Shown in pieces: positions 6,624 through 26,962 of a DNA stretch of 64,000 nt (its first letter is position 1; every line of letters starts with the position of its first letter). The notes below the pieces were generated by a model. That model was given only the letters and a program-made list of their open reading frames with translations, searched no databases and was not told the origin of the DNA. The stretch covers positions 10,048,001 to 10,112,000 of the forward strand of contig NZ_CP107841.1 in NCBI RefSeq assembly GCF_036346855.1, written 5' to 3'. The DNA comes from Streptomyces europaeiscabiei. Lineage in GTDB: Bacteria > Actinomycetota > Actinomycetes > Streptomycetales > Streptomycetaceae. The translations under genes were made by a program, and so were the position numbers.

Positions 6624-7050
6624 CGTTGAGTACTCCCGTGGTGTGGTGCCTGCGCTGCCGCGCCCCCGCGTCCGCGGCGGTCGGCTCCGGTTCAGGCGGA
6701 TCCTGTGCCGCCCGGGCCGGGACGGCACGTATGGGGTGCTGAGGGGAAGCGGGCTTCGTCGATCGCCGGCGTGGGGCACGGCGCGGGCCGAGGGGTGCCC
6801 CGCGGCGCTGGGCCCGGGATCGGCAGACGCCGACCCGGACGAGAAACTTATGAGGCACTACAGCCTCAAGTGCGTCGGAGTGTGACATGCCCCAGCGGGC
6901 TTGGGGAGGGGCTGTCGTAAAAAATTCCAGGCCTGGGAGTGCTGTCCGTGATGACCTCGGGCGATGTGGCGCTGTTCGACGTGACGAGTGTTGCTCCCGG
7001 GCGGGGCTGCTAACTACACTCACTCTAAAGTTTCTGCCGGAGGAGAGAAG
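6624..7050. promoter_or_regulatory. Divergent intergenic region, importer / Rieske operon
   Basis: 427 nt without a convincing gene. It holds an inverted repeat TGAGGC-N6-GCCTCA at 6851-6868. It also holds the promoter TTGCTC (6991-6996), 18-base spacer, TACACT (7015-7020) for the Rieske operon, and the TAACT-N13-AGTTT palindrome that covers the -10 box. No clear promoter for the importer was picked out by eye. Confidence 0.55.
7011..7033. promoter_or_regulatory. Operator-like palindrome, copy 1 (TAACT-N13-AGTTT)
   Basis: ACT (7013-7015), 13 bases, AGT (7029-7031), with A/T-rich flanks. The TACACT -10 box (7015-7020) lies inside it and the Rieske start is 18 nt downstream. This placement would let a bound repressor block RNA polymerase. 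Three other copies have the same spacing, at 15000, 19234 and 26940. Confidence 0.6.
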
Positions 7051-8457
7051 ATGGACGAAACGTCGGAGTCGGTCACCGCACGGTGCCCAGGGCCCAGCGT
7101 CCAGGACTACCTCGACCAGGACAGCCGGCCCGTTCCGCCCGCTCTGAGGTTCGAGCGGAACGACCACCTCGGCAGCGAGGACATCGACGCCACACGCTTC
7201 ACCTCCCGCGACTGGGCCGAACGCGAGATGCGGCAGGTATGGCGGCGGGTCTGGCAGTTCGCCTGCCTGGAGAGCGAGATTCCCGAGGTCGGCGACCACG
7301 AGATCTACGAGATCGGCGACGACTCGCTCATCGTCGTGCGCACGGCCCCCGGCGAGATCCGCGCCTACGTCAACGTGTGCCTGCACCGCGGCCGCAAGCT
7401 GCGCACCGGTGGCGGCAACGTCGGCGAGTTCCGCTGTTCGTTCCACGGCTTCGCCTGGAACCTCGACGGCACCATGCGGACCCCGCCCTGCGCCTGGGAC
7501 TTCCCGCACGTCAGCCCGGAGAAGTTCGCCCTGCCCGAGGCCCGGGTCGCCACCTGGCGCGGCTTCGTCTTCATCAACATGGACCCCTGTGCGGAGTCCT
7601 TCGACAGCTACCGCGGCACCTTCGACGAGTACTACATCTGGCCGCTGGAGGACCGCTACAAGTCGCTGCACATCGCCAAGGTGCTCCCCTGCAACTGGAA
7701 GATCGCGCAGGACGCGTTCATCGAGTCCTTCCACGTGATCGCCACGCACCCGCAGATGCTGCCGTGGCTCGCCGACGCCAACTCCCAGTACGACGTCATG
7801 GCCGACCAGCCGAACTGGAGCCGGATGATCAACATCCAGGGCGCGCCCAGCCCGCACGTGGCGGAGTCCGTCACGGAGGAGGACGTGCTGGAGACGTTCT
7901 ACGACTCCCGTGCGTTCTACTCGGCGGCCCAGGGTCGCGACCTGGTGAGGCAGGAGGGCGACGAGCTGCCCGCGATCCCGTCCGGCGGCACCGCCCGCCA
8001 GGTCCTCGCCCAGCGGATGCGCGAACAACTGGCGGCCACCGCGCGGCAGGACTTCTCGCAGACAGCCGACACCGAACTGCTGGACGCCATCAACTACCTG
8101 TTGTTCCCCAACTTCAACCCCTGGGGCGGTGCCAAGTCCAACATCATCTACCGGTTCCGGCCACACGGCCTCGACCCGGACTCCTGCACCGCCGAGATCA
8201 TCTTCATGTCGGCTCCGAAGCAGCCCGGCGAGATGCCGCCTCCGGCCAGGATCCGTTGGGTCCCGGAGGACATGCTCTTCGCGGACATCCCCGAACTCGG
8301 TGTGCTCGGGCCCGTCTTCGACCAGGACTGCGAGAACCTGCCCTACGTCCAGCAGGGCTTGAAGGCGATGCGCAAGCCGGGCATCACCCTGGCCAACTAC
8401 CAGGAGAGCCGCATCCGCCACTTCAACCGGACGCTCGACCACTGGATGGACAAGTGA
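7051..8457 (+). CDS. Rieske aromatic-ring-hydroxylating oxygenase, alpha subunit
   Basis: Terminal oxygenase component, 468 aa, that would hydroxylate an aromatic or related substrate with electrons from a ferredoxin. The ATG at 7051 follows GGAGGAG. Rieske cluster ligands are Cys110-x-His112 and Cys129-x2-His132 (CLHRG and CSFHGF). The catalytic domain has the mononuclear-iron segment DAFIESFHVIATHPQ and a long C-terminal SRPBCC domain. The stop overlaps the next gene (GTGA). Downstream ferredoxin and reductase-like genes fit a multicomponent oxygenase, although no classical FAD ferredoxin reductase is present. The substrate is unknown. Confidence 0.93.
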   Translation: MDETSESVTARCPGPSVQDYLDQDSRPVPPALRFERNDHLGSEDIDATRFTSRDWAEREMRQVWRRVWQFACLESEIPEVGDHEIYEIGDDSLIVVRTAPGEIRAYVNVCLHRGRKLRTGGGNVGEFRCSFHGFAWNLDGTMRTPPCAWDFPHVSPEKFALPEARVATWRGFVFINMDPCAESFDSYRGTFDEYYIWPLEDRYKSLHIAKVLPCNWKIAQDAFIESFHVIATHPQMLPWLADANSQYDVMADQPNWSRMINIQGAPSPHVAESVTEEDVLETFYDSRAFYSAAQGRDLVRQEGDELPAIPSGGTARQVLAQRMREQLAATARQDFSQTADTELLDAINYLLFPNFNPWGGAKSNIIYRFRPHGLDPDSCTAEIIFMSAPKQPGEMPPPARIRWVPEDMLFADIPELGVLGPVFDQDCENLPYVQQGLKAMRKPGITLANYQESRIRHFNRTLDHWMDK

Positions 8458-8768
8458 CCCGCCGCGTGGCCATCCGGCCCTCCGACGTCGAGATCGAGGT
8501 CCTCGACGGCGAGGACCTGTTCAGCGCCGCCGGGCGGCTCGGCTACAGCTGGCCCACCGTCTGCGGCGGCAAGGGCACCTGCCGTACCTGCTTCGTCCGG
8601 ATCGAGGAAGGTGCCGAGAACTGCTCTCCCGTGGACCCGCTGGAACGCGAGGGCATCGAGGCCCTGCGCAAGCCGGTGGACGGCCTGACCCGGCTCGCCT
8701 GCCGGCTCCGGGTCGAGGGCCCGGTGACCGTGACCAAGCGCGGCGTACGCCGCCGAGTGCAGGAGTGA
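8454..8768 (+). CDS. 2Fe-2S ferredoxin
   Basis: 104 aa electron carrier for the adjacent Rieske oxygenase. The GTG start overlaps the oxygenase stop. Cluster ligands are Cys37, Cys43, Cys46 and Cys83 (CGGKGTCRTC, then LAC). The first gap of five residues is the adrenodoxin-like rather than the plant-type spacing. The short length and lack of flavin or nicotinamide domains make it a stand-alone [2Fe-2S] protein. Confidence 0.9.
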   Translation: MTRRVAIRPSDVEIEVLDGEDLFSAAGRLGYSWPTVCGGKGTCRTCFVRIEEGAENCSPVDPLEREGIEALRKPVDGLTRLACRLRVEGPVTVTKRGVRRRVQE

Positions 8769-8776
8769 GGCCCACC

Positions 8777-8992
8777 ATGGCCAAGCAAGTGATCCACCCG
8801 CTGACCGGGCACGTGTACCGGCTCACCGAGGACGGCCTGGTCGAGGTGACCGACCCGAAGACCGGAGCGCAGGGCGTCTTCGACTTCCAGGCCCGGTGGC
8901 AGTCGGGCGAACTGCGCCACGCCGATCTGCAGATGGCCGGCTGGGTCGGCCGGCTCGCCCAGCGCCGCGGCACCCGGCAGCCGGGGGAGTGA
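8777..8992 (+). CDS. Small hypothetical protein in Rieske operon
   Basis: 71 aa, not recognised. The ATG at 8777 is about 11 nt after CAGGAG; a GTG at 8765 overlapping the ferredoxin stop is also possible. It is acidic to neutral and tryptophan-containing, with TGHVYRLTEDGLVEVTDP near the N terminus and WQSGELRHADLQMAGWVG near the C terminus, and no cysteine pairs or membrane segment. Its tight position between ferredoxin and reductase genes suggests a small subunit or assembly/substrate protein of this oxygenase. That is inference from context only. Confidence 0.75.
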   Translation: MAKQVIHPLTGHVYRLTEDGLVEVTDPKTGAQGVFDFQARWQSGELRHADLQMAGWVGRLAQRRGTRQPGE

Positions 8993-8996
8993 CCCG

Positions 8997-10019
8997 GTGG
9001 CGCCCCGCACCACGCGGGTGGTCTGTCTGGTGCGCCGACCCGACGGGGACCCGGTCCCTGCCGACTTCACCGTGGACGAACGCCCCCTGCCGGCCCTCGG
9101 CGAGGGACAACTGCTCGTCCGCAACCTCTACATGAGCGTCGACCCGTCCATGCGGGGGCGGCTGGAGAGCACCGAGAAGCACTACACGCACAACTTCACC
9201 CCCGGCTCGCCGCTCGACGGCCGGGCCCTCGGGGTCGTGGAGGAGAGCCGCTGCTCCTCGGTACCGACCGGTGCCTTCGTAAGGCACCAGCTGGGCTGGC
9301 GGGAGCGGGCCGTGCTGAATGCCGCGGACACCGACGGCGCGGATCGCATCGACCCGCGCCTCGCCCCGCTGCCCACCTGGCTGGGGCTGCTCGGCCAGAC
9401 CGGCTTCACCGCGTACGTCGGCCTGACCCGGATCGCCGGCCTCCGCCCCGGCGACACCGTCCTCGTGTCGGCGGCGGCCGGGGCCGTGGGCACCGCCGCC
9501 GGCCAGTTCGCGCGGCTGCTGGGCGCGGACCGGGTCATCGGGACCGCCGGAGGGCCGGACAAGTGCGCCCTGCTGGTGAAGGAGTTCGGCTACGACGCCG
9601 CCGCGGACTACCGGACGGAGCCGATGCGCGAGGCGCTGGCCCGGCTGGCACCCGACGGCCTCGACGTCTACTTCGACAACGTCGGTGGTGAGCAACTGGC
9701 CGCCGCCCTGCACGCGTTGCGCCCCGGAGGGCGCATCGCGTTGTGCGGCATGATGTCGCAGTTCGGCGGCGAGCGACGGCCGGTGGACATCAACCAGCTG
9801 ATCCAGGCGGTCCTCAAGCGGCTGACGCTGCGCGGCTTCATCGTCCGCGACCATGACGACCTGCGGCCGGAGTTCGAGCAGAGGGTCGCGAGCTGGCTCG
9901 CCGAGGGCCGGATCACCGCGCGCGAGACGGTCGTGGAGGGCCTGGAGAATGCCGCCGGTGCGCTGCTGTCGCTGCTGGACGGCGGCAACGTCGGCAAGAT
10001 GCTGGTCCGGCTGGATTGA
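8997..10019 (+). CDS. NADP-dependent MDR oxidoreductase
   Basis: 340 aa zinc-free medium-chain reductase of the prostaglandin reductase/CurA/leukotriene 12-hydroxydehydrogenase group, which reduce or oxidise enones with NADPH. GTG start 4 nt after the preceding stop. The N-terminal SVDPSMRGR motif and the Rossmann segment AAAGAVGTAAGQFA with the following NADP-binding region are present, and the C-terminal half has VGGEQL and GMMSQF. It is last in the Rieske operon and ends at a perfect hairpin. It is not a typical ferredoxin reductase, so it more likely acts on the oxygenated product. Confidence 0.9.
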   Translation: MAPRTTRVVCLVRRPDGDPVPADFTVDERPLPALGEGQLLVRNLYMSVDPSMRGRLESTEKHYTHNFTPGSPLDGRALGVVEESRCSSVPTGAFVRHQLGWRERAVLNAADTDGADRIDPRLAPLPTWLGLLGQTGFTAYVGLTRIAGLRPGDTVLVSAAAGAVGTAAGQFARLLGADRVIGTAGGPDKCALLVKEFGYDAAADYRTEPMREALARLAPDGLDVYFDNVGGEQLAAALHALRPGGRIALCGMMSQFGGERRPVDINQLIQAVLKRLTLRGFIVRDHDDLRPEFEQRVASWLAEGRITARETVVEGLENAAGALLSLLDGGNVGKMLVRLD

Positions 10020-10026
10020 TCCCACC

Positions 10027-10057
10027 GAGACGGCGCCCCCGCCGGGGGCGCCGTCTC
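10027..10057. terminator. Perfect 14-bp hairpin between convergent genes
   Basis: Arms 10027-10040 and 10044-10057 (GAGACGGCG... against ...CGCCGTCTC), with a three-base loop. It sits between the converging reductase and monooxygenase genes. The right arm reaches into the stop codon of the minus-strand gene. Confidence 0.8.
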
Positions 10058-10370
10058 AGCGCATGGGGCGTGACGCGGCGACGGTGTGGGTGGTCAGGCA
10101 GACCCCGACGCGGGTCAGCCCCGCCACGGCCGCCCGGAAGTCCTTGATGTGCGCGGTGGTGAAGTGCTCGTCCAGGGCCTGCCGGGAGGTCCAGTGCTCG
10201 TACACCCGGATACGCCGTTCGTCGGTGGGATCGGCGGTCATGGCGTAGTCCAGGCAACCGGGTTCCCGCTCACGGGTGTGCCGGCCCAGCTCGACCAGGG
10301 CCCTCAGCATGGTGTCGCGGTCGCCGGGCTCGTAGTCCATCCAGCCGGCGACGATGATTTCCTCGGTCAC
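10056..10370 (-). CDS. Antibiotic biosynthesis monooxygenase (ABM) domain protein
   Basis: 104 aa ferredoxin-like alpha/beta barrel monomer of the ABM family (cofactor-free quinol-type monooxygenases or small stress proteins). Features are the N-terminal strand IIVAGWMDY, the central CLDYAMTAD, and the signature YEHWTSRQALDEHFTTAHIKDF. The GTG at 10370 follows AAAGGA. A 20-bp-stem hairpin separates it from the upstream gene, so it probably has its own promoter in 10371-10391. It may oxidise a quinol intermediate of the surrounding pathway, but many family members have unknown function. Confidence 0.85.
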   Translation of the reverse strand: MTEEIIVAGWMDYEPGDRDTMLRALVELGRHTREREPGCLDYAMTADPTDERRIRVYEHWTSRQALDEHFTTAHIKDFRAAVAGLTRVGVCLTTHTVAASRPMR

Positions 10371-10391
10371 GTGGTCCTTTCGCGGTCATGC

Positions 10392-10433
10392 CCTCGGGCC
10401 CGCCGCCCCTGCACAGGGGCGGCGGGCCCGAGG
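10392..10433. terminator. 20-bp perfect stem hairpin
   Basis: Arms 10392-10411 and 10414-10433 are exact complements with only CA between them. It lies five bases beyond the stop of the PEP-mobile-domain gene and before the ABM start. It is a strong factor-independent-type terminator for the minus-strand operon, without a clear T-run. Confidence 0.8.
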
Positions 10434-10437
10434 TGTC

Positions 10438-12174
10438 TCAGACGCCGAGCGGCGCCGGGACGCTGTCGACGGTGACCGTGCCCCGGTCGCCGTCGACCGT
10501 GATCACCATGCCGTCCCGCAGCCGTCGTGTTCCGCCTTCGACGGAGATGACGGCCGGGATGCCCAGCTCCCGGCAGACCACGACGGCGTGGCTGTTGATC
10601 GCACCCACGTCCACCACGGCCGCCCCGGCGACCAGGAACAGCGGAGTCCAGGCCGCGTCCGTGATCGGCGCGACCAGTACCTCACCCGGCTCCAGAGCCT
10701 CGCACGAGGCCGGGTCGGTGACCACCCGCACCCTGCCGGTGTACGTACCGTGACTGCCGCCGACACCGCTGAGGGCATCGCCCTCGACCGCGGCCTCGGT
10801 GCGCTCCTCGGCGCGTCGCGGCCAGGCGTCGATCTCGGTCCGCGCGTCGTCCGCGATGAAGAACGGCGGCTCCAGTTCGTGCAGTCCCGCGTACTCCTGA
10901 AGACGCTGCGCGATGACGGGGCCGAACGGTTCCGGGTCGGCGACATAGCCGTCGAGTTCGGTGTCGAGCAGCATCATCACGTCCTCGGGCGCGGCGAGGC
11001 GTCCCGCCTCGACGCCGCGGCGGCCGAGCTCCCGCACCGCCATCCGGATCTCGTTGACGACGGTCACACAGTTCGCCTTGGTGCGCTCGCGGGCCGGGAT
11101 CCACACCTGGGAGGCGTGCATGCCGGCGTCGAACATCGGCTGCGCGTCCTCGGGCAGCGCGGCCCGGATCTCCTGCGCGGTCTGCTCGCGTCGCAATCTC
11201 AGGCGAGCCCGCCGGGCGGCCGGGGAACCGTCGTCGGAGCTGTGCCGGATCCGGTCGACCAGCGCCAGCGCCTGGACCGGCGCAGCCTCCCACGACAGCG
11301 CGTGGATGTCCCACTCGTTGGGACCGCGGTCGCCGGACGCGGCCAGGAACTCCTCGAACGCGTCACGGAACGCCTTCACGTCCCCGATGGCCCCGTCGAG
11401 CGCCCGCTCCACCGCGGCCGGGCCCTCGTCGAACAGCGCGGTCAGCTCCGCCGACGCCGCCACCTGGCGGGACAGCGTCCACAGCCCGTCCGAGGGGGAG
11501 GCCGAGTCGACGTCGCCGAGACCGCCGATGAGGTCCAGCATGTCGCCGGGTCGGTCCACACTCGCGCACAGCGGTCCGAGGATCGCGGGTCCGACGGACG
11601 CGGGCAGCGACGACTCGACGTGCCGTTGGAAGGTCGTCTCCACCTGGTCCAGCAACGACCGTGCGTACGCCACCAGTTCGGCGTCCGGCAACCCGGTCAG
11701 GTCCGGCCGCTCACGGCGCAGGCGGCGCAGCCGCTCCCGGTCGGCGTCGGCCTCCGGGAAGTTGGTCTGGCCCAGCATCCGCTGGAGCGTGCCACCGGCC
11801 TTCGCGGTCAGTTCTCCGTCCTGGTCGTCGGGGTGCGCCACATACTCCGGAGTGTCCGAGCGCTGGCCGACGAAGGCGGCGTCGATCTGGTCCGCCGTCT
11901 GGCCCATACGGATGCCGAACAGCCGCATGTGAGACAGGTTGAGGTAGAAGTAGCCGCCGAACATCCCGACGAACGGCGGTCGAGGACCGGCCACCTCCTC
12001 CTCGTGGTAGATGCCGAAGCCGACGAAGCCCTTGCGCCAGCCGTGCAGACCGCGCCCCCAGACCAGGGTCCAGCCCAGCGGGCTGGCCGGCTCCGGCAGG
12101 GTCTCGCCCGCGTTGGCGCGGGTGTAGTGCGGCAGCCGCTCACTGCGCTGCCAGTCCGTGATCCAGCTCTTCAC
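10438..12174 (-). CDS. PEP-utilising-enzyme mobile (swivelling histidine) domain protein
   Basis: 578 aa. The GTG at 12174 follows GGGAG. The C terminus is a PEP-utiliser swivelling domain: GTYTGRVRV, then VGAINSHAVVVCRELGIPAV, which carries the phosphorylatable His. The N-terminal 450 residues (starting LPHYTRANAGETLPEPASP) have a layout like the substrate domain of rifampin phosphotransferase and phenylphosphate-synthase-type proteins. No ATP-grasp domain is present, so a partner must phosphorylate the histidine. The only candidate in the window is the PPDK-like protein at 22710-25331. The two lie on separate transcripts in the same presumed regulon. A phosphotransferase role is inferred. 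Confidence 0.85.
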   Translation of the reverse strand: MKSWITDWQRSERLPHYTRANAGETLPEPASPLGWTLVWGRGLHGWRKGFVGFGIYHEEEVAGPRPPFVGMFGGYFYLNLSHMRLFGIRMGQTADQIDAAFVGQRSDTPEYVAHPDDQDGELTAKAGGTLQRMLGQTNFPEADADRERLRRLRRERPDLTGLPDAELVAYARSLLDQVETTFQRHVESSLPASVGPAILGPLCASVDRPGDMLDLIGGLGDVDSASPSDGLWTLSRQVAASAELTALFDEGPAAVERALDGAIGDVKAFRDAFEEFLAASGDRGPNEWDIHALSWEAAPVQALALVDRIRHSSDDGSPAARRARLRLRREQTAQEIRAALPEDAQPMFDAGMHASQVWIPARERTKANCVTVVNEIRMAVRELGRRGVEAGRLAAPEDVMMLLDTELDGYVADPEPFGPVIAQRLQEYAGLHELEPPFFIADDARTEIDAWPRRAEERTEAAVEGDALSGVGGSHGTYTGRVRVVTDPASCEALEPGEVLVAPITDAAWTPLFLVAGAAVVDVGAINSHAVVVCRELGIPAVISVEGGTRRLRDGMVITVDGDRGTVTVDSVPAPLGV

Positions 12175-12206
12175 GACCGAAGGTCTCCCGCCGTCCGTCC
12201 CGGTGC

Positions 12207-12998
12207 CTACCACTGCGCCGTACCGCCGTCGACACTGATCAGCGTGCCCGTGATACCGGCTCCGACGTCACTCGCGAGCAGTGAGGCGACGGCCGCGATC
12301 TGTTCCACGGTGGTGATCTTCTTGGTGGCGGCATGCTCGGCGAACCGGCCCAGCCACTCCTCGTAGGAGATGCCCTCGGCCTCGGCCGCGGCCGGTCCGG
12401 CGGCCCGCATGAGGTCGGTGTCGACGGCGCCGGGGCAGATGGCGTTGCAGGTGATGCCCTGGGTGCCGTACTCGAAGGCGGTCGCCTTGGTCAGGCCGTG
12501 GATCGCGTGCTTGTTGGTGATGTAGTGGCTGATCGCGGGCTTGTTGGCCTGCTTGCCCTCGACGGAGGAGATGTTGATGATCCGACCCCAGCCGCCCGCC
12601 AGCATCTTCGGCAGCGCGCGCCGGGTGCCGTAGAAGTAGGCGTTGAGGTTCAGCTTGAGGGCGTCGTGCCAGGCCTCGTCGCTGAGCTGGTGGACCGGGG
12701 CGAAGCCCGAGGTGCCGCCGGCGTTGTTGACCCAGACGTCGAGCCGGCCGAAGCGCTCGGCGGCGAAGTCGGCGAGGTTCTCGATGTCCTCCTGGCTGTT
12801 GGCGTCGCAGGGGTGGAAGACGGCCCGGTCACCGGCGCCGATCTCCTCCAGGGCCTGCTTGCCCTTGAGCTCGCTGCGGCCGCTGATGACGACTGTGGCG
12901 CCGTCGGCCAGGAACTGTTCGGCGATGGCGCGGCCGATGCTGCGCGTGCTGCCCGTGATCACCGCGACACGTCCGTCGAGGCTGCCCGTAGCCACCAT
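12207..12998 (-). CDS. Short-chain dehydrogenase/reductase
   Basis: 263 aa classical SDR, NAD(P)-dependent. ATG 12998 follows GGGAG. Motifs are TGSTRSIG, WVNNAGG, Ser in INISSVEG, and the catalytic YITNK about 17 residues later. The C-terminal SVDGGTAQW is typical. Of the nucleotide motif only the third Gly is altered in spacing. It lies between a Rieske oxygenase and the PEP-mobile-domain gene with gaps of about 30 nt, so it is likely co-transcribed. A cis-dihydrodiol or alcohol oxidation after the Rieske step is plausible but not proven. Confidence 0.92.
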   Translation of the reverse strand: MVATGSLDGRVAVITGSTRSIGRAIAEQFLADGATVVISGRSELKGKQALEEIGAGDRAVFHPCDANSQEDIENLADFAAERFGRLDVWVNNAGGTSGFAPVHQLSDEAWHDALKLNLNAYFYGTRRALPKMLAGGWGRIINISSVEGKQANKPAISHYITNKHAIHGLTKATAFEYGTQGITCNAICPGAVDTDLMRAAGPAAAEAEGISYEEWLGRFAEHAATKKITTVEQIAAVASLLASDVGAGITGTLISVDGGTAQW

Positions 12999-13027
12999 GG
13001 TGTTCTCCCGCGAGTGTTGTTGGTTCG

Positions 13028-14338
13028 TCACCTGGTGGCTCGGTCGGCTTGAGTGCCTTCGGCGTGTGTGTCCAGGGACTGGTGGATGGTGCGGTGGAAA
13101 TGCTGGAGTCCGGGCTCGTTGCGTCCGAAGACGAAGTCGGTCCCGTCGAGGGCGGCAAGGCCCTGCTGTACTCCGTAGGTGGTCGCGTAGTCCTCGTCGC
13201 GGACCACCTCGTGGAACCATTCGCCGAACCGGTCGGCGGCCTGGCGCTCCTCGTCGGTGACCGCCGGTTCCCGCAGCAGGATGATCTGCTGGGTCACCGA
13301 CTCGGTGGCCGTCCGGGGGAGCACCAGGGAGACGGCGATCTTCTGCCGCCAGCCGCCGGCGATCGCGAGGCCCGGGAAGAGCCAGTAGATGGGGCCGACG
13401 CAGTCGCCCGGGTCGCGCTGGTCCGGCGGCAGTTCGACCGCCTGTGCGATCGGGCGCAGGGCCGGTGCGATGCGCTGGTGAGGGCCCCAGGTGTCGTGGG
13501 CCATCATGTTGGAGAGGTTCGTCTCGAACACCGTCTTCGGGTGCAGGGAGGCGAAGTGGTAGGTCTCCAGGTATCCGTCGAGGGTGACCTTCCAGTTGGG
13601 GCTGGTCAGTTCGCCGGTGGAGTAGTGGTGGCACTCCGCCAGCCGCATTCCTTCCAGCAGTGGCTGGAGGTCGCCCAGCCAGGCGTCCAGGTCCGGTTCG
13701 GCGGCCGGGTCCAGTGAGACGAAGACGATGCCGGCCCGTTCCCCGGCGGGAAGCGCGACGAGGCCGCGCCCCTCGCGAGGGACCTCGCCGAAGGTCTTCT
13801 CGGCGTACACGCCGCGCAGCTCACCGGTGAGGTCGTAGGACCAGGAGTGGTACGGGCAGGTCAGCCGTTTGGAGACGCCGCAGCCGGGTTCCAGGAGCTT
13901 GGCTCCCCGGTGCCGGCAGGCGTTGATCATGGCGTGCACGGTGCCCTGGCGGTCCCGGGTGATCAGCACCGGAACGCCGAGTACGTCGATCGCCTTGTAG
14001 GTGTGGGGGCCGGGCAGCTCGCAGGACATGGCGAGCGGCAGCGGGACACCACGATGGACGGCTTCCGTCTCCCGTCGCCAGCGGTCGGCGTCGAGGTAGT
14101 TGGCGACGGGTTCCGTCCACTGCTCGTCAACCTGGTGCGTCGTGCCGTCGCGGTAGTGCGCCACCACGCGTTCGACGAGTTCGGCGGCCTCCCGCCGCAT
14201 CGCCAGGGACGCGGCGTCGGTGGACCGGTCCCGGCTGATCCACGAGGAGTATTCGGGGGTCGGGGGGGCCGAAGGGGCCGAGGGCGGCTCGCTCCCGGCG
14301 TCCGTCTCCCGAATCTCCGGCGAACTGGTCTGGACCAC
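13028..14338 (-). CDS. Rieske aromatic-ring-hydroxylating oxygenase, alpha subunit
   Basis: 436 aa terminal oxygenase, distinct from the one at 7051. I chose GTG 14338 behind GAGGACATC; an upstream extension lacks a ribosome site. Rieske ligands are Cys141-x-His143 and Cys161-x2-His164 (CRHRG and CPYHSW). The catalytic iron region has GYLETYHFASLHPKT. No ferredoxin lies beside it, so it may share the ferredoxin at 8454. A TTGACA hexamer at 14435-14440 (minus strand) is a candidate -35 box. It is first in a minus-strand operon with an SDR and the PEP-mobile-domain protein. Confidence 0.92.
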   Translation of the reverse strand: MVQTSSPEIRETDAGSEPPSAPSAPPTPEYSSWISRDRSTDAASLAMRREAAELVERVVAHYRDGTTHQVDEQWTEPVANYLDADRWRRETEAVHRGVPLPLAMSCELPGPHTYKAIDVLGVPVLITRDRQGTVHAMINACRHRGAKLLEPGCGVSKRLTCPYHSWSYDLTGELRGVYAEKTFGEVPREGRGLVALPAGERAGIVFVSLDPAAEPDLDAWLGDLQPLLEGMRLAECHHYSTGELTSPNWKVTLDGYLETYHFASLHPKTVFETNLSNMMAHDTWGPHQRIAPALRPIAQAVELPPDQRDPGDCVGPIYWLFPGLAIAGGWRQKIAVSLVLPRTATESVTQQIILLREPAVTDEERQAADRFGEWFHEVVRDEDYATTYGVQQGLAALDGTDFVFGRNEPGLQHFHRTIHQSLDTHAEGTQADRATR

Positions 14339-14487
14339 GATGTCCTCACAATCCTCCCAGCCGCGAGCCGGCGACCGGCTTCGGAATGCGACAGCTGGGC
14401 TGTGTCCGAAACGACAACAGGACTTAGTGTGGTCTGTCAATAGAAAGTGGCGAAGTGGCCGCTCGGTGGTCCGTGGGGGTGGGTGCG

Positions 14488-14967: not shown

Positions 14968-14999
14968 AGATCCTGTTCAGTAAGGTGCCCCCATGCTGG

Positions 15000-19233: not shown

Positions 19234-19256
19234 TTACTGGATAGCATGGTCAGTAC
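19234..19256. promoter_or_regulatory. Operator-like palindrome, copy 3 (TTACT-N13-AGTA)
   Basis: TTACT at 19234-19238 and AGTA at 19252-19255, separated by 13 bases, in the 147-nt gap between two divergent TetR genes. It also contains a TANNNT (TAGCAT, 19242-19247). A site here would give autoregulation of either or both regulators. A second, GC-rich symmetry (GGCCT...AGGCC, near 19177-19197) lies nearer the minus-strand gene. Confidence 0.6.
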
Positions 19257-19995: not shown

Positions 19996-21150
19996 TCACA
20001 CCGTGAGGACCGAGCAGGCGCTGATCCCGGGTGCTCCGTACACGTGGGTGAAGCCCACCCGGGGAGCGCCCGGTACCTGCACGCCCGGTGCCCGGCCCTG
20101 CAACTGCCGTACGACCTCATGGAACTGGCGCAGCCCCGAGGCGCCCACGGGCTCCCCGCCGGCCAGGCAGCCGCCGTCGGTGTTGACCGGTATCCGGCCT
20201 GTGGGATCGGTGTCCCCGCGGGCCAGCAGCTCTTCCTGTTCGCCGTGCCCGCACAGCCCGGTCTCCGCCAGGTGGATCAGCTCCGAGCCGCTGTCGGTGT
20301 CCTGCAACTGGGCGACCTGGACGTCCGCGGGCCGCACACCGGCCGTGCGGAAGGCCGCCTCGGCCGCGTCGACGCTGGGGCTGTGGTGCGGGCCCGGCGG
20401 CAGCCAGGGCGAGAACACCTCGAACGAACCGAACCGCCGGGTGCGGAACGCCAACGCCGCCAGTTTGACGGGTCGTTCGCACAGGTCGAAGGCGCGGTCG
20501 CCGAGCGCCAGCACGAGCGCCGCCGCGCCCTGTCCCGGTGAGCAGAACATGTACTGGGTGAGTGGTGGACTGACCTCGGCGGAGTCCAGGATCTCCTGCT
20601 CCGTCAGCGGCTTGCGCCGCCAGGCCAGGGGGTGGTGCGAGCCGTTGCGGAAGGCCCGCGCGGCGACTGTCGCCAGCGCCCGCTCGGAGATCCCGTGCTC
20701 ATGCAGGTATCGCTGCGTCTTGAGAGCGAAGAACTGGGTGGTCAGCATCATGCCGGTCTCGGCATACCAGTCGCCCAGACCGTAGCGGGCCGCGGAGACG
20801 TGGAACGCGCCCCGCTCATGCTTGTCGAACCCCACCGCCAGTCCCAGTGACGCCTCGCCCGCGCGCAGCGCGTTGGCCACCGCGAGCACGGTGGAGGTGC
20901 CGGTGGCGCAGCCGTTCTGCACGTTGACGAACGGCACACCGGTCAGGCCCAGGCGGCCCACCAGCGTGTCGGGCTTGCCGGACACGTCGGAGCCGCCGGC
21001 CGCGTAGCCGATGTCCTCCCAGGAGACCCCGGCGTCGGCCAGCGCCTCGCGTACCGCCCGCTCGGCCATGTCCATCCCGGTGACGGTCTCGTCGCGGCCG
21101 AAGCGATGCATTCCGCATCCGACGACGTAGACGTCCTCGCTCCGGCTCAT
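19996..21150 (-). CDS. Thiolase-like (SCP-X/lipid-transfer) protein
   Basis: 384 aa thiolase-superfamily protein of the kind paired with DUF35 partners. It cleaves or forms C-C bonds on CoA thioesters (retro-aldol or thiolytic), often in steroid or alkyl side-chain degradation. The nucleophile Cys is in NGCATGTST, and the second half has GGCLAGGEPVGASG and the ending FTHVYGAPGISACSVL. The family's usual GHP His motif is altered to GEPVGAS, as in these non-canonical members. Its ATG overlaps the DUF35 stop (ATGA), indicating a stable complex between the two. Confidence 0.9.
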   Translation of the reverse strand: MSRSEDVYVVGCGMHRFGRDETVTGMDMAERAVREALADAGVSWEDIGYAAGGSDVSGKPDTLVGRLGLTGVPFVNVQNGCATGTSTVLAVANALRAGEASLGLAVGFDKHERGAFHVSAARYGLGDWYAETGMMLTTQFFALKTQRYLHEHGISERALATVAARAFRNGSHHPLAWRRKPLTEQEILDSAEVSPPLTQYMFCSPGQGAAALVLALGDRAFDLCERPVKLAALAFRTRRFGSFEVFSPWLPPGPHHSPSVDAAEAAFRTAGVRPADVQVAQLQDTDSGSELIHLAETGLCGHGEQEELLARGDTDPTGRIPVNTDGGCLAGGEPVGASGLRQFHEVVRQLQGRAPGVQVPGAPRVGFTHVYGAPGISACSVLTV

Positions 21151-21575
21151 CGCTCCCCCTCCCCGTCCGGGCGGAACGCGAAGGTCAGGACCTCGGTTCC
21201 GTCCTCGTCCTGATACGCGGGCACGGTGGTGAGCCGTACCGGCAGCCCGATCCGTATCCGGGTGCGGGGAACCGCCAGCCGCGCCTCGATCAGCACCTCA
21301 CCGAGGTCCACATAGCCCACGTGGTACGGCCGGTGGCCGTCGGCCGGAGGCCGGTAGGGCGGCTTCGGCGGGAACGCCTGGAGCGTCCACGACCACACGC
21401 GCCCGCTCACCGGCAGCACGTGACCGGACATGGGCCCGTCCGAACACCTCGGGCACGAGTCCTGTCGGGGGAAGACGACGGTGTCGCACCTGGAGCAGCG
21501 CGCACCCGCGAGCCGCGGTGGGGCCCCGTCGGCCCCGTCGTCGAACAGCGAGTCGTCGATGAGTCGGGTGGTCAT
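21147..21575 (-). CDS. DUF35 OB-fold zinc-ribbon protein
   Basis: 142 aa partner of thiolase-like enzymes. The N-terminal rubredoxin-like zinc ribbon is CSRCDTVVFPRQDSCPRC (two CxxC knuckles). The following OB-fold has SGRVWSWTLQAFPPKPPY and YVDLGEVLIEARL. I chose ATG 21575 because GGAAGGCGG stands 7 nt before it; the upstream GTG (21593) would be one base from the previous stop with no ribosome site. It is translationally coupled with the thiolase-like gene. It probably binds CoA substrates for that enzyme. Confidence 0.9.
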   Translation of the reverse strand: MTTRLIDDSLFDDGADGAPPRLAGARCSRCDTVVFPRQDSCPRCSDGPMSGHVLPVSGRVWSWTLQAFPPKPPYRPPADGHRPYHVGYVDLGEVLIEARLAVPRTRIRIGLPVRLTTVPAYQDEDGTEVLTFAFRPDGEGER

Positions 21576-21594
21576 ACCGGTTCCGCCTTCCACG

Positions 21595-22713
21595 TCACCA
21601 GCTCAGCAGCCCTGCCAGCCGTTCCCGGTGGTGTGCGGCGCCGCCCAGCAGGACGGCGTCGGACTGGGCCCGCCGGAAGTACAGGTGTGCGTCGTGTTCC
21701 CAGGTGAAGCCCATGCCGCCGTGCAACTGCACGCACTCGGCGGCGACGGACACGAAGGCCTCACAGCACCACGCCTGGGCCACCGCCGCCGCTTCGGCCA
21801 GCGCTTCGGCCGAGCCGGCCGCCCGTACGGCGCGCGTCACCGCCGAGCGTGCGCCCTCGACCTGGAGCAGCATGTCGGCGCAGGTGTGCTTGACCGCCTG
21901 GAACCCGCCGATCGCCCTGCCGAACTGCGTACGGTCCCGCACATGGGCCACCGTCATGTCCAACGCCGCCTGAGCGCCGCCGAGTTGCTCGGCGGCCAGG
22001 GCGACCAGGGCCACGTCCAGGGCCCGGGAGACGACATCCGCCCCCTCGCCGCCGGCGGTCAGTGCCCGGGCCCGCGCGCCGGAGAGGGTGACCACCGCCT
22101 GGCCCCGGCTGAGGTCCAGGGTGGTGACCCGGCGCACGGTGACCCCCGGTCCCCGCGGGTCGACGAGGAAAAGGTCCACTCCGTCGGCTCCGGCGGCGGC
22201 CACCACCAGCGCCATGGCATCGGCGCCGTCGAGTACGAACGGCGCGGTGCCGTCGAGGACCGGGACCCCGCTCTGCCAGGAGACGGCGACCGGCACGGCA
22301 TCGGGCCGCCAGGCCCCGTCGGGCGCCGATACCGCCAGTGCGTGGACCGTGCCTTCGGCCAGTTCGGCCAGCGCCTTGTCGGCCGTTCCGCAACCGGCGA
22401 GCACCTGTCCGGCCAGCACGGTGGAGGACAGCAGCGGTACCGGTGCCAGCGTCCTGCCCAGTTCCTCGCAGACCACGGCGATCTCGGAGAGACCGCCGAT
22501 GCCTCCGGCCGGCTCGGGCAGCCCGAGGGCCGCGAGGCCGACCTGCCGTCCGAGGGTGTCCCACAACGCGGCGTCGATGCCGGGGGAGTGCTCGGGCAGC
22601 CGGCGCACCGTCGCGGTGCCTCCGGCGTCCGCGCACACCGACCGTACGGTCTCGCGCAGGTCGTCCAGTTCGGCGTCCGACAGGGCCGGGCCGCCGGTCA
22701 CGGTGCTCGTCAT
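21595..22713 (-). CDS. Acyl-CoA dehydrogenase
   Basis: 372 aa FAD enzyme of the smaller, beta-like type that often pairs with another acyl-CoA dehydrogenase as an alpha2beta2 heterotetramer in steroid side-chain degradation (FadE pairs). Features are LPEPAGGIGGLSEIAVVCEELG in the N-terminal domain and DRTQFGRAIGGFQAVKH in the C-terminal helical bundle. The position of the usual catalytic Glu/substrate motif reads QLHGGMGFTWEHDAHLYFRRA. The possible partner is at 27013. ATG overlaps the PPDK-like stop. Confidence 0.9.
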   Translation of the reverse strand: MTSTVTGGPALSDAELDDLRETVRSVCADAGGTATVRRLPEHSPGIDAALWDTLGRQVGLAALGLPEPAGGIGGLSEIAVVCEELGRTLAPVPLLSSTVLAGQVLAGCGTADKALAELAEGTVHALAVSAPDGAWRPDAVPVAVSWQSGVPVLDGTAPFVLDGADAMALVVAAAGADGVDLFLVDPRGPGVTVRRVTTLDLSRGQAVVTLSGARARALTAGGEGADVVSRALDVALVALAAEQLGGAQAALDMTVAHVRDRTQFGRAIGGFQAVKHTCADMLLQVEGARSAVTRAVRAAGSAEALAEAAAVAQAWCCEAFVSVAAECVQLHGGMGFTWEHDAHLYFRRAQSDAVLLGGAAHHRERLAGLLSW

Positions 22714-25331
22714 CGTGTGCTCCCGCTGCCGCTCTCGTCATGCCGCCCGCGTCGGGCACTGTGCGCGGCCGCCATCCGGGCCACCGGCACGCGGTGCGCG
22801 GAACAGGAGACGTAGTCGAGGCCGAGGTCGTCGCAGAAGGCGATCGACTCCGGATCCCCGCCGTGCTCTCCGCACACGCCCAGCTTGATACCGGGCCGCA
22901 CGCTCCGTGCCCGCTCGACGGCCAGGGCGATGAGGGCGCCCACCCCGTGCGGGTCGAGCCGCGCGAAGGGGCTGGCCGTCAGGAGGCCGCGCTCCTGATA
23001 GGTGGCGAGCACCTGGCGCTCGACGTCGTCCCGGGAGAACCCGTAGGTCAGCTGGGTGAGGTCGTTGGTGCCGAAGGAGAAGAACTCCGCGTGTTCGGCG
23101 AGTTCACCGGCCAGGAGCGCGGCCCTCGGGGTTTCGATCATCGTGCCGAGCCGGTACGGGACCTCCACACCGGTGCGGGCGGCGACCGCCTCGGCGGCGC
23201 CACGCACGTACGCGGCCGCGGCGGCCAGTTCCTCCGGCAGGCTGACGAGCGGGATCATCACCTCCAGCTCGGGCCGGACCCCGGTGGCCGCCACGTCCGC
23301 CCAGGCGGCGAAGAGCGCCTCGGCCTGCGCCGGGTAGAGCCTCTCGTGCAGCAGCGCCAGCCGAACCCCGCGCAGCCCGAGCATCGGGTTCGCCTCACGC
23401 AACGCTGCGGCCCGCTGCTCCTCGGCCGCGTCCAGGGCGTGGCCGGGGGCGGGCAGGAACTCGTGCAGCGGGGCGTCCAGCAGGCGCACGGTCACCGGGC
23501 GGTTCCCGACCGCGGCCAGCAGAGCCCTGAAGTCCTCGTGCTGAGCGCGCTCCAGCGCCACCAGCGCCTCGTGGCGGGCGGCCGGGTCGGCGGCCAGGAT
23601 CACCCGGCGGATCAGCGGCAGCCGGTCGCCGAGGAACTGGTGCTCCGTACGGCACAGCCCGACACCCTCCGCGCCCAGGGCGAGGGCGGTGTCGACCTCG
23701 GCGGCGGTGTCGGCGTTGGCCCGCACACCCAGCCGGCGCATGTCGTCCGCCCAGGCGAGCAGGGTGGACAGTTCGGGCGGCGGGCCGGCCACACTGACGT
23801 TCAGCGTCCCCGCGTAGACGGCGCCGGTGCGGCCGTCCAGTGAGACGGGGTCGCCCTCGCGCAGCAGCCGCTCCCCGATCCGCACCGTTCCGGCGGCCCG
23901 GTCCAGGCGCAGCCCCTCGGCGCCGCACACCGCGGGCTTGCCCGCGCCCCGCGCCACCACGGCGGCGTGCGAGGCGATACCTCCACTGCCGGTCAGTACG
24001 GCGACGGAGGCCAGCATTCCCGGCACGTCCGCCGGGGTCGTCTCCTGCGCCACGAGCACGACAGGGGTGCCGTCCGCACCCAGTTCGAGGGCCCGCTCAC
24101 TGGACAGCACGACCACACCGGTCGCCGCGCCGGGGGAGGCGGGCAGCCCCTTCACCAGAAGTTCCTCGCCGCCGGTCAGCCGGAGCTGGGGGTGCAGCAG
24201 TTCCTGCACCTGCGCGGGGCCGATACGCAGTACGGCCTCCTCGGGGCCGAGTGCGCCGTCCCGTGCCAGGTCGGCGGCGAGGCATACCGAGGCCCGCAGC
24301 GGCGGCCGTTGCTGCGCGGAGGCGGCGAGCAGGGAGATCTCGTCGTCGCGTACCTCGAAGTCGACGGAGACGGGCGCGCGCAGATGACGTTCGAGGGTGA
24401 GGAGGGAATGCTCCAGCAGAGCCGTTCCGCCCGCGAGGCGGTCCAGCGGTTCACCGGTGTGCGGTGGTGGGGCGCTGCGCCGCACCCCGCGGAAGAAGGA
24501 GCCCTGAGGGGAGAGACGGCCCGTCTCGGGATGGCGGCTGACCGCCGTGCCGTAGCCCGAACGGTCGGCCGGGCCGATGCGCAGCGCCTGTACGTGCAGG
24601 GCGACACCGAGATCGGCGGGGAGCCGCTGCGCCTTGCGGGATCTCCTCGCTCGCGGTGAGTCCCACCGTACGAGAAGGGCGCGGGCGGCCAGGGCGAGCT
24701 GCTGGGCCGGGTCGTCGGGGAAGGGCTGTGAGCCGTGCCGCGCGACCAGGGACAGCAGCGCGTCGACCCGTGCCCGCGGCTCGGGCGTGTCGAGGAGGAC
24801 GTCGTCGAGCACCGCGCCGGGTACGTCGAGGGCGTACTCGGCGATCATCCGCACGGTGGCGGCCCACACCTCGTACAGGGCGTCCGCGCGTCCGATGACG
24901 GCGCACAGACCGTCGGCTCCCGTGGAGGTGACACCGAGACAGGCGAGGTCGGGCGGCAGTCCGGCGATCTCGGTCGGGGCGCTCGCCGACAGGCGCAGGA
25001 GCAACGGGCGGCCCGTGTCGCCGATCCGCCGTCCCGACAGCGCTTCGATCAGGTCGACGGCGGCTCGGGCGGTGCCGGGTTCACACAGCGACGCGGCGGC
25101 ACCGGCCGGCACGGTGAGCCCCGGGACGACCGGCAGTCCGAGGGCCACCAGCCGGTCCATGGCCGCGCCGTGGGCGCCCAGTTCGCCGGCGTCGAGCCCC
25201 CGGATTCGTCCCTGGCCGTAAGGCACCAGGAGGCGGCCCGGGGCTTCGGAGGGTGCGAGCGAGGCCTCGGAGGATGCGAGGGGGGCCTCGGACGGAGCGA
25301 AGTGGCCCGGCTCGCGGTCGGTGACGCTCAA
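22710..25331 (-). CDS. PPDK-like PEP-utilising protein with degenerate ATP domain
   Basis: 873 aa, close to pyruvate phosphate dikinase in length and order. The middle swivelling domain has GSGGIASHAAVVARGAGKPA with the phospho-His. The C-terminal PEP/pyruvate TIM barrel looks intact: VRLLDAPLHEF, NPMLGLRGVRL, MIETPRAALL and the catalytic-Cys motif VCGEHGGDP. The N-terminal ATP-grasp region is recognisable (GLPVVPGLTVP, TAVSRHPETG) but lacks the GGKGANL lysine and the SVRSGA arginine of PPDK, and has a Ser/Ala/Pro-rich repeat at its start. TTG 25331 overlaps the preceding stop, behind GAGGAG. It may use PEP, not ATP, to charge a histidine. Confidence 0.88.
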   Translation of the reverse strand: MSVTDREPGHFAPSEAPLASSEASLAPSEAPGRLLVPYGQGRIRGLDAGELGAHGAAMDRLVALGLPVVPGLTVPAGAAASLCEPGTARAAVDLIEALSGRRIGDTGRPLLLRLSASAPTEIAGLPPDLACLGVTSTGADGLCAVIGRADALYEVWAATVRMIAEYALDVPGAVLDDVLLDTPEPRARVDALLSLVARHGSQPFPDDPAQQLALAARALLVRWDSPRARRSRKAQRLPADLGVALHVQALRIGPADRSGYGTAVSRHPETGRLSPQGSFFRGVRRSAPPPHTGEPLDRLAGGTALLEHSLLTLERHLRAPVSVDFEVRDDEISLLAASAQQRPPLRASVCLAADLARDGALGPEEAVLRIGPAQVQELLHPQLRLTGGEELLVKGLPASPGAATGVVVLSSERALELGADGTPVVLVAQETTPADVPGMLASVAVLTGSGGIASHAAVVARGAGKPAVCGAEGLRLDRAAGTVRIGERLLREGDPVSLDGRTGAVYAGTLNVSVAGPPPELSTLLAWADDMRRLGVRANADTAAEVDTALALGAEGVGLCRTEHQFLGDRLPLIRRVILAADPAARHEALVALERAQHEDFRALLAAVGNRPVTVRLLDAPLHEFLPAPGHALDAAEEQRAAALREANPMLGLRGVRLALLHERLYPAQAEALFAAWADVAATGVRPELEVMIPLVSLPEELAAAAAYVRGAAEAVAARTGVEVPYRLGTMIETPRAALLAGELAEHAEFFSFGTNDLTQLTYGFSRDDVERQVLATYQERGLLTASPFARLDPHGVGALIALAVERARSVRPGIKLGVCGEHGGDPESIAFCDDLGLDYVSCSAHRVPVARMAAAHSARRGRHDESGSGSTR

Positions 25332-25960
25332 CCCCGGCTCCTCGTGACCAGCTCCTCTTCCCGGACCTCGTCCTCGGCCCGGCTGATCCCGAGCACGAGC
25401 AGCAACTCCTGGTGCAGCCGCATCCACACGGTGTGGTAAGAGTCGCACAGCGGCGAGGCCAGCCACTTCACCTCACCGTCGTCGAAGCGGTCGAGGGCTT
25501 CCTCCAGCTCGGTCAGATACCGCCCGCTGCCTTCGAGCGCCTGTTCCAGCCTGCGCAGCACGGGCTGGATGGCCTCGTGCACGTCCTCCAGCGACTCGCG
25601 CACCCCGGCGTCGTAGACGCTGTCGGAGTGGTCGTTGGCGGTTCCGTCGGGCCGGCACTGCCATGCCGTGCACACCTCGCGGATCTTCCTGTTGACCGGC
25701 AGGAAGGCCTCGTACGCCTTGGTGATCTGCTTCTCCCTCGCCGATCCCTGCGGGATCCGCAGGATTCCTGCGGCGGTGGCCTTGGCCCGCTCGGTGGGCA
25801 GCACGAGCGGACCCTTCACCATCGCCAGCCCGGTGTCGACCAAGGGGCGGTGCTCCGATTCGGGCCTGCCGCGCCACATGCCCCGCAGAACGAGGTCGAC
25901 GACGGCTTCGGTGAGCGTCTCGTCGGGAGCGCCCGGAAGGTCCACGGGAGCAGATTGCAT
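25328..25960 (-). CDS. Helical protein preceding the PPDK-like gene
   Basis: 210 aa, no confident family. ATG 25960 is 7 nt after AAAGG, whereas GTG 25966 would be too close. It is largely alpha-helical and acidic, without membrane segments. Notable runs are AYEAFLPVNRKIREVCTAW, NDHSDSVYDAGV and DSYHTVWMRLHQELLLVLG. From memory, the last motif resembles the C-terminal part of proteins encoded next to PPDK genes in actinobacteria, some with an N-terminal winged helix. Here the N terminus (LVLRGMWRGRPESEHRPLVDTG) could be a decayed one. Stop overlaps the PPDK-like TTG, so the two are probably partners. Confidence 0.8.
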   Translation of the reverse strand: MQSAPVDLPGAPDETLTEAVVDLVLRGMWRGRPESEHRPLVDTGLAMVKGPLVLPTERAKATAAGILRIPQGSAREKQITKAYEAFLPVNRKIREVCTAWQCRPDGTANDHSDSVYDAGVRESLEDVHEAIQPVLRRLEQALEGSGRYLTELEEALDRFDDGEVKWLASPLCDSYHTVWMRLHQELLLVLGISRAEDEVREEELVTRSRG

Positions 25961-26054
25961 CGCCACACCTTTTCCCCGGTTCTGTGGTGACCGGTTCCTC
26001 GGTTCTGTGTTGCCCGGAGGTTACGCTCCGGCGGGCCTGTTAGTGAAGAGGGAT
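25961..26054. promoter_or_regulatory. Gap with direct repeats before the PPDK-like unit
   Basis: Two copies of CGGTTCTGTG at 25977-25986 and 26000-26009, 23 bp apart, lie upstream of the 210-aa gene and downstream of the enoyl-CoA hydratase stop. An AGTG...CACT symmetry follows nearer the hydratase end. This may be a second promoter inside the operon. No TTACT-N13-AGTAA site is present here. Confidence 0.35.
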
Positions 26055-26891
26055 TCAAGAAACACTTTCCGGTTCCCCGAGCCGGAGCCGACTGTCGACC
26101 GTCCGGGCGCGGCCCCGGGCGGCGAGGAACGACGCCATCCGTTCCTGTGCCTCCGGCCCGTTCGCCAGGGCGGCGATCTGCCGCGCCTCCTCGGCGAGGT
26201 GGGAGCCCAGCGCGGACCCGTCGAGGCCGCGCAGCAGGTTTTTCGCGGCGCGCAGGGCGTCACCGGCGCCGGCGGCCAGCCCGGCGGCGGTCCGGTGCGC
26301 CGCCGCGTCCAGTTCCTCGTCATCGACCGAGCGGGAGACCAGACCCCACCGTTCGGCGTCGTCCCCGGTCAGGACCCGGTTGGTGAGGATCAGGTCCGCT
26401 GCCAGCCGGGGACCCACCAGGCGCGGCAGGAACCAGGACGCTCCGCAGTCCGGCGTGAGCCCGACGTCCGTGTACGCCAGCCGGAACCGTGCGGACCGGG
26501 CCGCCAGGACGATGTCGCCCACGAGGGCGAGACCGACCCCGCCACCCGCGGCGGCGCCGCGCACGGCGGTGACCACCGGCACCGGCAGTTCGTGCAGTGC
26601 CTGTATCGCGGCGTGCGCGGCGGTCGCCACGGCATGCACATAGGCGCCCGTCCCGTCGCCGAGACCGGCGAAGGCGCGCAGGTCACCGCCCACGCAGAAG
26701 GTCCCGCCGGTCGCCCGCAGCAGGACCGCGCCGCCCGGGTCCGCGGCCACCCGGGCCGTCGTGTCCCGCAGTGCCTCGGCCGTCGCCAGGTCCAGGGCGT
26801 TGCCCCGCCCGGGATCGTCCAGCCGCACCTCGACGACTCCGTCGGGGTGGCGGACGACCCGCACCGGCTCGGGGTTCACCGAGTTGCTCAT
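26055..26891 (-). CDS. Enoyl-CoA hydratase/isomerase
   Basis: 278 aa crotonase-fold enzyme. The oxyanion-hole segments are GGTFCVGGDLRAF and GAAAGGGVGLAL. The catalytic region reads GLTPDCGASWFLPRLVG, more like PaaG/isomerase-type members than classical hydratases with two Glu. ATG 26891 follows AGGGGAG. It is first in the minus-strand operon and divergent from an acyl-CoA dehydrogenase, sharing a 121-nt control region with the TACT-N13-AGT palindrome. It would hydrate or isomerise the enoyl-CoA made by the neighbouring dehydrogenases. Confidence 0.92.
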   Translation of the reverse strand: MSNSVNPEPVRVVRHPDGVVEVRLDDPGRGNALDLATAEALRDTTARVAADPGGAVLLRATGGTFCVGGDLRAFAGLGDGTGAYVHAVATAAHAAIQALHELPVPVVTAVRGAAAGGGVGLALVGDIVLAARSARFRLAYTDVGLTPDCGASWFLPRLVGPRLAADLILTNRVLTGDDAERWGLVSRSVDDEELDAAAHRTAAGLAAGAGDALRAAKNLLRGLDGSALGSHLAEEARQIAALANGPEAQERMASFLAARGRARTVDSRLRLGEPESVS

Positions 26892-26939
26892 AGGACGTCT
26901 CCCCTGCCGTCTTCCCGTCGCCGGGCTTCTCACGGCAAG

Positions 26940-26962
26940 ATACTAAAGACGCTATACAGTTT
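26940..26962. promoter_or_regulatory. Operator-like palindrome, copy 4 (ATACT-N13-AGTTT)
   Basis: TACT at 26941-26944 and AGT at 26958-26960, 13 bases apart, in the divergent gap between hydratase and acyl-CoA dehydrogenase. It contains TANNNT sequences on both strands (TACAGT on plus, TAGTAT on minus), so one bound repressor could silence both directions. Confidence 0.6.

Follow-up and report, generated by a model that had tools for sequence, protein, structure and literature searches.

We describe a 23-letter near-palindrome that recurs in promoter regions of a cluster of oxygenase and acyl-CoA genes, taken to encode a breakdown pathway, in Streptomyces europaeiscabiei, together with two regulators of the TetR family, TetR1 and TetR2, encoded in the same cluster. 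The window, by which we mean the whole 64,000-nt stretch analysed, comes from contig NZ_CP107841.1, and site positions count from its first letter. Judging from sequence comparison, the near-palindrome is real and conserved and very probably serves as an operator, and we place strong confidence in its sites being operators of the TetR1/TetR2 pair, whatever the oligomer. The balance of the evidence tips towards a single regulon under joint repression by the two proteins, which most likely act as a heterodimer. The conservation of the operator, the extent of the predicted regulon, the pairing of the two genes and the asymmetry of the half-sites are all demonstrated by comparison among genomes.

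Probable operator sites in the window and in orthologous clusters

The initial annotation of this DNA had reported four places with one identical layout, WWACT-N13-AGTWW. A pattern scan returns the exact pattern at three places in the window (7011, 15000 and 26940) and at none in 100 dinucleotide shuffles; the fourth, 19234-19256 (TTACTGGATAGCATGGTCAGTAC), keeps ACT-N13-AGT and ends in AC, one base short of WW. Three of the sites had been said to overlap a TANNNT -10 box, a count that proved too low: read by eye, such a hexamer lies in all four, as TACACT (7015-7020), TACTGT (15001-15006), TAGCAT (19242-19247) and, at site 26940, TACAGT (26955-26960) on the plus strand and TAGTAT on the minus strand.

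For a symmetric position-specific scoring matrix (PSSM) we took sites from the window and its orthologs in five classes: RO, E1-O2, O1, TetR gap and ECH/ACAD2 (ECH, enoyl-CoA hydratase). With one promoter left out at a time, each left-out class ranks 2 to 7 of 63978 window positions. With all classes included, the top eight window sites are 26940, 14961, 15000, 7011, 19234, 26040, 14424 and 6844, scoring from 31.1 to 14.6, after which the ninth, 19148, scores 12.7 and the tenth falls to 8.4. Sites 6844, 14424 and 26040 stood outside the training of the matrix, and the counts below for RO, E1, TetR gap, ACAD2 and O1 use training classes. The matrix adds an E1 operator at 14961 (30.0 bits) to the four sites first named. 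It also finds weaker conserved sites (6844, 14424 and 26040) before 6623, 14338 and 25960, where the motif had been recorded as not seen; before 10370 and 12174 that record is borne out, with no site of at least 14 among the matrix matches listed, and the genes there probably belong to an operon starting behind 14424. The predicted sites, given without strand, are as follows.

6844..6866, weaker operator, AAACTTATGAGGCACTACAGCCT; PSSM 14.6; 220 bp before the ABC-transporter operon 2847-6623 (minus strand)
7011..7033, operator of the Rieske operon, TAACTACACTCACTCTAAAGTTT; exact pattern match
14424..14446, weaker operator, TTAGTGTGGTCTGTCAATAGAAA; PSSM 16.8; between the second Rieske gene (minus) and the VOC gene (plus)
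14961..14983, first E1/E2 operator, O1, TAATTAGAGATCCTGTTCAGTAA; PSSM 30.0; held-out rank 4 of 63978
15000..15022, second E1/E2 operator, O2, TTACTGTAGACCGGCACTAGTAA; exact pattern match
19234..19256, operator between the divergent TetR genes, TTACTGGATAGCATGGTCAGTAC; putative autoregulation
26040..26062, operator, TTAGTGAAGAGGGATTCAAGAAA; PSSM 20.3; before the operon 25966 to 19996 (minus), overlapping the ECH stop codon
26940..26962, operator between divergent ECH (minus) and ACAD2 (plus), ATACTAAAGACGCTATACAGTTT; exact pattern match
19148..19170, doubtful weak site over the TetR1 start codon, GATGTCGTCATGATGTCAAGTAT; PSSM 12.7; half of it is coding sequence

Site 7011 overlaps the putative -10 hexamer TACACT, with a conserved TTGCTC 18 bp before the hexamer. 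The doubtful site at 19148-19170 is listed in many ortholog loci and contains a good half-site, ATACTTGACAT, on the minus strand.

To follow the sites across genomes we used a scan for TetR2 that gave 55 loci, 44 of them close orthologs (L013-L056, from Streptomyces and three Lentzea) and 11 of them distant TetR matches that were left unused. The cluster is largely syntenic among the close orthologs, with both TetR genes in 44/44 and the Rieske gene in 43/43 genomes searched, for which 42 upstream stretches were read. The four sites originally named are retained in 40-44 orthologous clusters, from Streptomyces and Lentzea. A score of at least 16 is reached by the TetR-gap site (19234) in 44/44 orthologous gaps, by the ECH-ACAD2 gap site (26940) in 40/40 orthologs and by the site in the gap between g25328 and ECH (26040) in 40/40 orthologous gaps, and in all 42 ortholog upstream regions the Rieske site (7011) scores at least 20 and the 6844 site at least 12. 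The 14424 site reaches at least 14 within a fixed interval in 39/40 orthologs, the fortieth (L052) having it just outside, 834 bp upstream of E1. Two sites of at least 15.5 precede 42/42 ortholog E1 genes; O1, as TAATT-N13-AGTAA, lies within the stretch scanned upstream of 41 of these 42 genes and farther upstream, at 5459, in the remaining one (L042), and in many orthologs without a strict match O2 has ACAAA or AGAAA as its right half. Identity over the Rieske site is 95.8%, compared with 71.7% in the preceding 40 bp, and the leader that follows is also conserved (93.7%). Control stretches gave no site of at least 14, neither in convergent gaps (0/43, 0/44 and 0/19) nor in 582,237 bases of coding DNA from 12 genes. 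The proposal that scattered operons form one regulon is thus strongly supported, with sites kept in the promoter regions of 40-44 orthologous clusters and none of equal score in the coding DNA and convergent gaps scanned; a motif equally frequent inside genes would have spoken against it, and the scanned coding DNA held none.

Some variation among the orthologs accompanies this pattern. The TetR-gap site carries CCT rather than ACT in L051 and L053, where an extra TTACT also lies upstream. Nine of the 40 ECH-ACAD2 gaps (L038, L040, L042-L046, L048 and L049) contain two sites of at least 15, 88-98 bp apart, in which inner bases are changed and ACT and AGT are kept. The E1 upstream region of L042 carries a short tandem repeat with copies of GGCACAACAAAGTCC directly behind the E1 operator. 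In L056 (10001-20657) thiolase and TetR2 genes are about 7.6 kb apart rather than adjoining, which points to DNA inserted or rearranged in that cluster.

The source genome (10.95 Mb, three contigs) was scanned with IUPAC patterns, because the sequence-only covariance model R1, with at most 11.5 bits in the window, was too weak for 11 Mb. Genome-wide, 5 places match the exact pattern, 3 of them inside the 20 kb that hold these sites, and 1 place matches its backward-read control. The looser WWAYT-N13-AGTWN occurs at 12 distinct places, 5 of them inside this 20 kb (contig coordinates 10055011, 10062961, 10063000, 10067234 and 10074940), with 17 strand matches in total against 15 for the control; since the total is close to the control, it is the clustering that constitutes evidence. 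A third pattern gave 12 places, 4 inside this 20 kb, and 9 for its control. Outside the cluster, the exact place at 740916 scores only 8.3 on the matrix, and that at 9191894 scores 23.9 in a stretch that by eye resembles a broken mobile gene. A looser match at G000:C1:3342325 (L148, position about 2026; TTACTGAAGCGGCACTACAGTA), far from the cluster, scores 23.4 and sits between divergent genes that by eye are LysR-type and cyclase-type; it is perhaps a further target, perhaps a chance match. The exact pattern is concentrated where the TetR pair is present: six Streptomyces that bear the pair contain it at 22 places, 18 inside the cluster, and 18 Streptomyces without the pair, picked from genomes without a TetR2 match, contain it at 12 places in total; the backward control gave 13 and 43, respectively.

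The TetR pair and the unequal half-sites

Both proteins carry the TetR_N helix-turn-helix (PF00440; 56 and 58 bits against a cut-off of 24), and both have the all-helical ligand-binding domain with C-terminal dimer helices that is characteristic of the TetR family, as is a near-palindromic operator in the own promoter, here the predicted site 19234 found in 44/44 orthologous gaps. TetR1 and TetR2 are full-length homologs of each other (hhalign probability 99.8, 26% identity; BLASTP 31% over 133 residues), and have in common a basic N-terminal arm with the consensus AHRPSRR (AHRPSRK in the TetR1 of the window, ANRPSRR or RRPNRR in some distant TetRs) and a recognition helix near (A/T)AVYYHF. 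The folds closest to their single-chain AlphaFold2 (AF2) models include the acyl-CoA-responsive TetRs FasR, DesT, FadR, KstR2 and AibR, whose likeness to the modelled pair is one of fold neighbours only.

The two genes travel together. Among 394 genomes of the class, the source genome included, TetR1 and TetR2 were found in the identical 16, at E-value cut-offs of 1e-15 and 1e-25, respectively. TetR2 adjoins TetR1 at 18/18 TetR1 loci listed (the TetR1 of G314 is cut by a contig end), and TetR1 adjoins TetR2 at 18/19 TetR2 loci; two further TetR1 match rows are the TetR2 gene itself. L114, L132 and L134 have convergent genes and all other distant pairs divergent ones, and by these matches the pair is kept side by side across several actinobacterial families, whatever the gene order.

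The half-sites of the 23-bp imperfect dyad, roughly WWACTNNA(G/T)A, appear to be of two kinds, half A being about TTWCTTGA..C and half B about TWACTGTAGTC. For 30 representative sites, which were picked by hand and are in part related, an expectation-maximisation fit with two different half-site models lies 28.3 log units above the symmetric model, whereas random re-pairing of the same halves gains 19.2 (sd 3.1) and reached the observed value in 1/400 trials; in a version with 39 sites it did so in 0/60. This asymmetry fits one TetR on each half. The locus L112, with its changed TetR2 helix, offers a mere hint toward assigning half A or half B to one of the proteins, and we do not claim such an assignment.

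The operator extends beyond the close orthologs. In 14 distant loci the matrix trained on Streptomyces finds 32 sites of at least 16, compared with 0.5 expected under a first-order Markov model (the largest of 20 totals was 3), and 10 of the 14 loci have operator sites, several of which precede homologs of Rieske, acyl-CoA dehydrogenase, SDR or ferredoxin genes. The three convergent distant loci have sites before TetR1.

The initial annotation had placed the regulon probably under one of the two TetR proteins. This now appears doubtful: because the two genes stay paired and the operator has unequal halves, joint control by TetR1 and TetR2 is the likelier arrangement. A heterodimer would bind with one subunit on each unequal half-site, and its sites would number at least eight, spread over seven promoter regions, the one at 7011 lying over the -10-like hexamer. 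It would thereby shut off together the transporter, the two Rieske oxygenases, the 2-oxoacid dehydrogenase, the beta-oxidation genes and the tetR pair itself, and an acyl-CoA or similar intermediate of the pathway may release it.

Several observations weigh against this reading or reduce the force of the evidence for it. The AF2 models of TetR1 and TetR2 are single chains and carry no dimer information, and many EthR and uncharacterised TetR entries stand within 1-2 Z among the closest folds. The asymmetry is moderate evidence, since its sites are partly related and hand-chosen, and its null gain, 19.2 against the observed 28.3, is itself large. The TetR1 and TetR2 searches scored 7-8 candidates per genome, and one TetR2 locus, G117:C1:270148, has no TetR1. 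The 32 distant sites include mutual orthologs. Four of the 14 distant loci (L112, L113, L115 and L131) have no site at 16; the TetR2 recognition helix is changed to TVTYHF in L112 and L113, and L115 has a lone TetR2 with TAVNYHF, while L131 counts against the reading because it has no site although both helices look intact. In the divergent distant tetR gaps, 10 in number, no site reaches 16 (the best scores 12.1), and autoregulation through the gap is thus, as far as seen, confined to the Streptomyces-Lentzea group. Scans of two promoter stretches with the sigma-70 consensus found nothing.

Homodimers, a third regulator or a promoter element

TetR repressors are generally taken to be homodimers, and most TetR operators are palindromes bound by homodimers. 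Ordinary homodimers are accordingly the most serious alternative here, though one we consider less probable than joint binding: one TetR would repress, or both would bind the same sites separately, competing or answering different ligands. With recognition helix and arm nearly identical, each TetR could bind both halves, and fairly symmetric sites exist, 15000 and L138 17739 among them. A pairing of the TetR genes that is independent of their orientation, and unequal half-sites that combine A with B, are harder to reconcile with homodimers.

It is quite improbable that a third regulator, encoded elsewhere in the genome, binds the dyad and that the TetR genes are merely among its targets. Neighbouring targets are no proof of the binder, and an ANTAR-STAS gene (28252-29067) adjoins the cluster. 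This gene is found in 0/44 near orthologous loci, several of which end before its expected position. The operator, moreover, accompanies the TetR pair into other families whose other neighbours partly differ, and exact sites are few in the 18 pair-less Streptomyces, 12 together.

Least probable, if only by a little, is that the layout represents two overlapping divergent -10 boxes or a chance palindrome: a TANNNT hexamer lies in all four named sites and the ECH/ACAD2 site is divergent, but a promoter element alone is rejected as the main reading, given the distant loci and the dyads that do not lie at the presumed start (6844, which precedes the ABC gene by 220 bp, and 14961, 39 bp before O2), and chance by the shuffles, the genome counts, the 582 kb of coding DNA without a site, the 95.8% identity over the whole Rieske site and the 32 distant sites against 0.5 expected.

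The cluster and its relation to known systems

Gene families were assigned by Pfam and NCBIfam, and the limits of operons are predicted.

2847..6623, minus, ABC transporter operon: periplasmic binding protein, ATPase, permease (Pfam)
7051..10019, plus, Rieske oxygenase, Fer2 ferredoxin, 75-aa protein, medium-chain reductase (Pfam, NCBIfam)
10056..14338, minus, second Rieske oxygenase, SDR, 591-aa PEP-utilizer/RedH-like protein, ABM protein (Pfam, NCBIfam)
13028-14338, minus, second Rieske gene; start from the initial annotation, open frame extending to 14440
14455-14967, plus, VOC protein (Pfam, NCBIfam)
15065..18515, plus, 2-oxoacid dehydrogenase E1 alpha, E1 beta, E2 (Pfam, NCBIfam)
18547..19158, minus, TetR1, 203 aa (Pfam TetR_N 3e-15; AF2 pLDDT 92.5, TetR fold)
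19306..19956, plus, TetR2, 216 aa (Pfam TetR_N 7e-16; AF2 pLDDT 89.5, TetR fold)
19996..25966, minus, thiolase, OB-fold protein, acyl-CoA dehydrogenase, PPDK-like 918-aa protein, 212-aa protein (Pfam, NCBIfam)
26055..26933, minus, enoyl-CoA hydratase, ECH (Pfam, NCBIfam)
26983..28230, plus, acyl-CoA dehydrogenase ACAD2 (Pfam, NCBIfam)

Two relatives of PEP-utilising enzymes, the RedH-like protein of 591 aa (10438-12213) and the PPDK-like protein of 918 aa (22710-25466), stand within this oxygenase and beta-oxidation cluster. The 212-aa (25328-25966) and 75-aa (8765-8992) proteins have no Pfam match at 0.001 and no NCBIfam match at 1e-15; both recur in orthologous clusters, and the 75-aa gene is a neighbour of the Rieske gene in several distant loci too. 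A search for the substrate of the pathway found none.

The closest analogue among known systems is Mce3R of Mycobacterium tuberculosis (9b7y), the top PDB sequence match of TetR2 (1e-10) and the second of TetR1 (6e-7). As described in PMC11667970, Mce3R has two TetR domains in one chain and an asymmetric 25-bp operator; one promoter region holds two such sites, and the regulon includes cholesterol-metabolism enzymes. The likeness would lie in two unlike TetR units on an asymmetric operator, an assembly with which the unequal half-sites and the paired genes of the present system are consistent. Mce3R differs in being one fused chain of 406 aa, as opposed to two genes for 203 and 216 aa on opposite strands; because its two units are separate genes rather than two domains of one polypeptide, the system in the window is not a member of the Mce3R type. 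The similarity is modest (1e-10, 6e-7) and spread over both halves, and Mce3R is absent among the best 50 fold matches listed for TetR1 and for TetR2. By analogy, the TetR1/TetR2 system may work like Mce3R. Regulation of the BkaR type (Rv2506 / MSMEG_4718) was rejected: BkaR, as described in PMC3920632, is an autoregulated TetR repressor acting on a palindrome before a branched-chain keto-acid gene cluster, with a 16-bp core, GTTA(N)T(N4)A(N)TAAC, bound by a dimer of one protein, whereas the window sites lack this core, carry ACT-N13-AGT and come with two TetRs. Among the literature matches listed, none on TetR heterodimers describes a matching system by title and start of abstract, and none describes this regulon, subscription papers lying mostly outside the scope of the search.

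It is close to an even question whether the pair is an obligate heterodimer, a repressor that would be the natural counterpart, in two genes, of fused Mce3R and would control oxygenase and acyl-CoA pathways in several actinobacterial families by way of a single asymmetric 23-bp operator, with a signal on either subunit opening the whole regulon. A natural heterodimer, if real, would illustrate how different subunits integrate signals and read half-sites that are not alike. A cluster of roughly 25 kb becomes one defined regulon with a readable operator, and this operator provides a direct handle, as the 7011 site placed in a reporter could show which compound is the inducer and hence which pathway is encoded.

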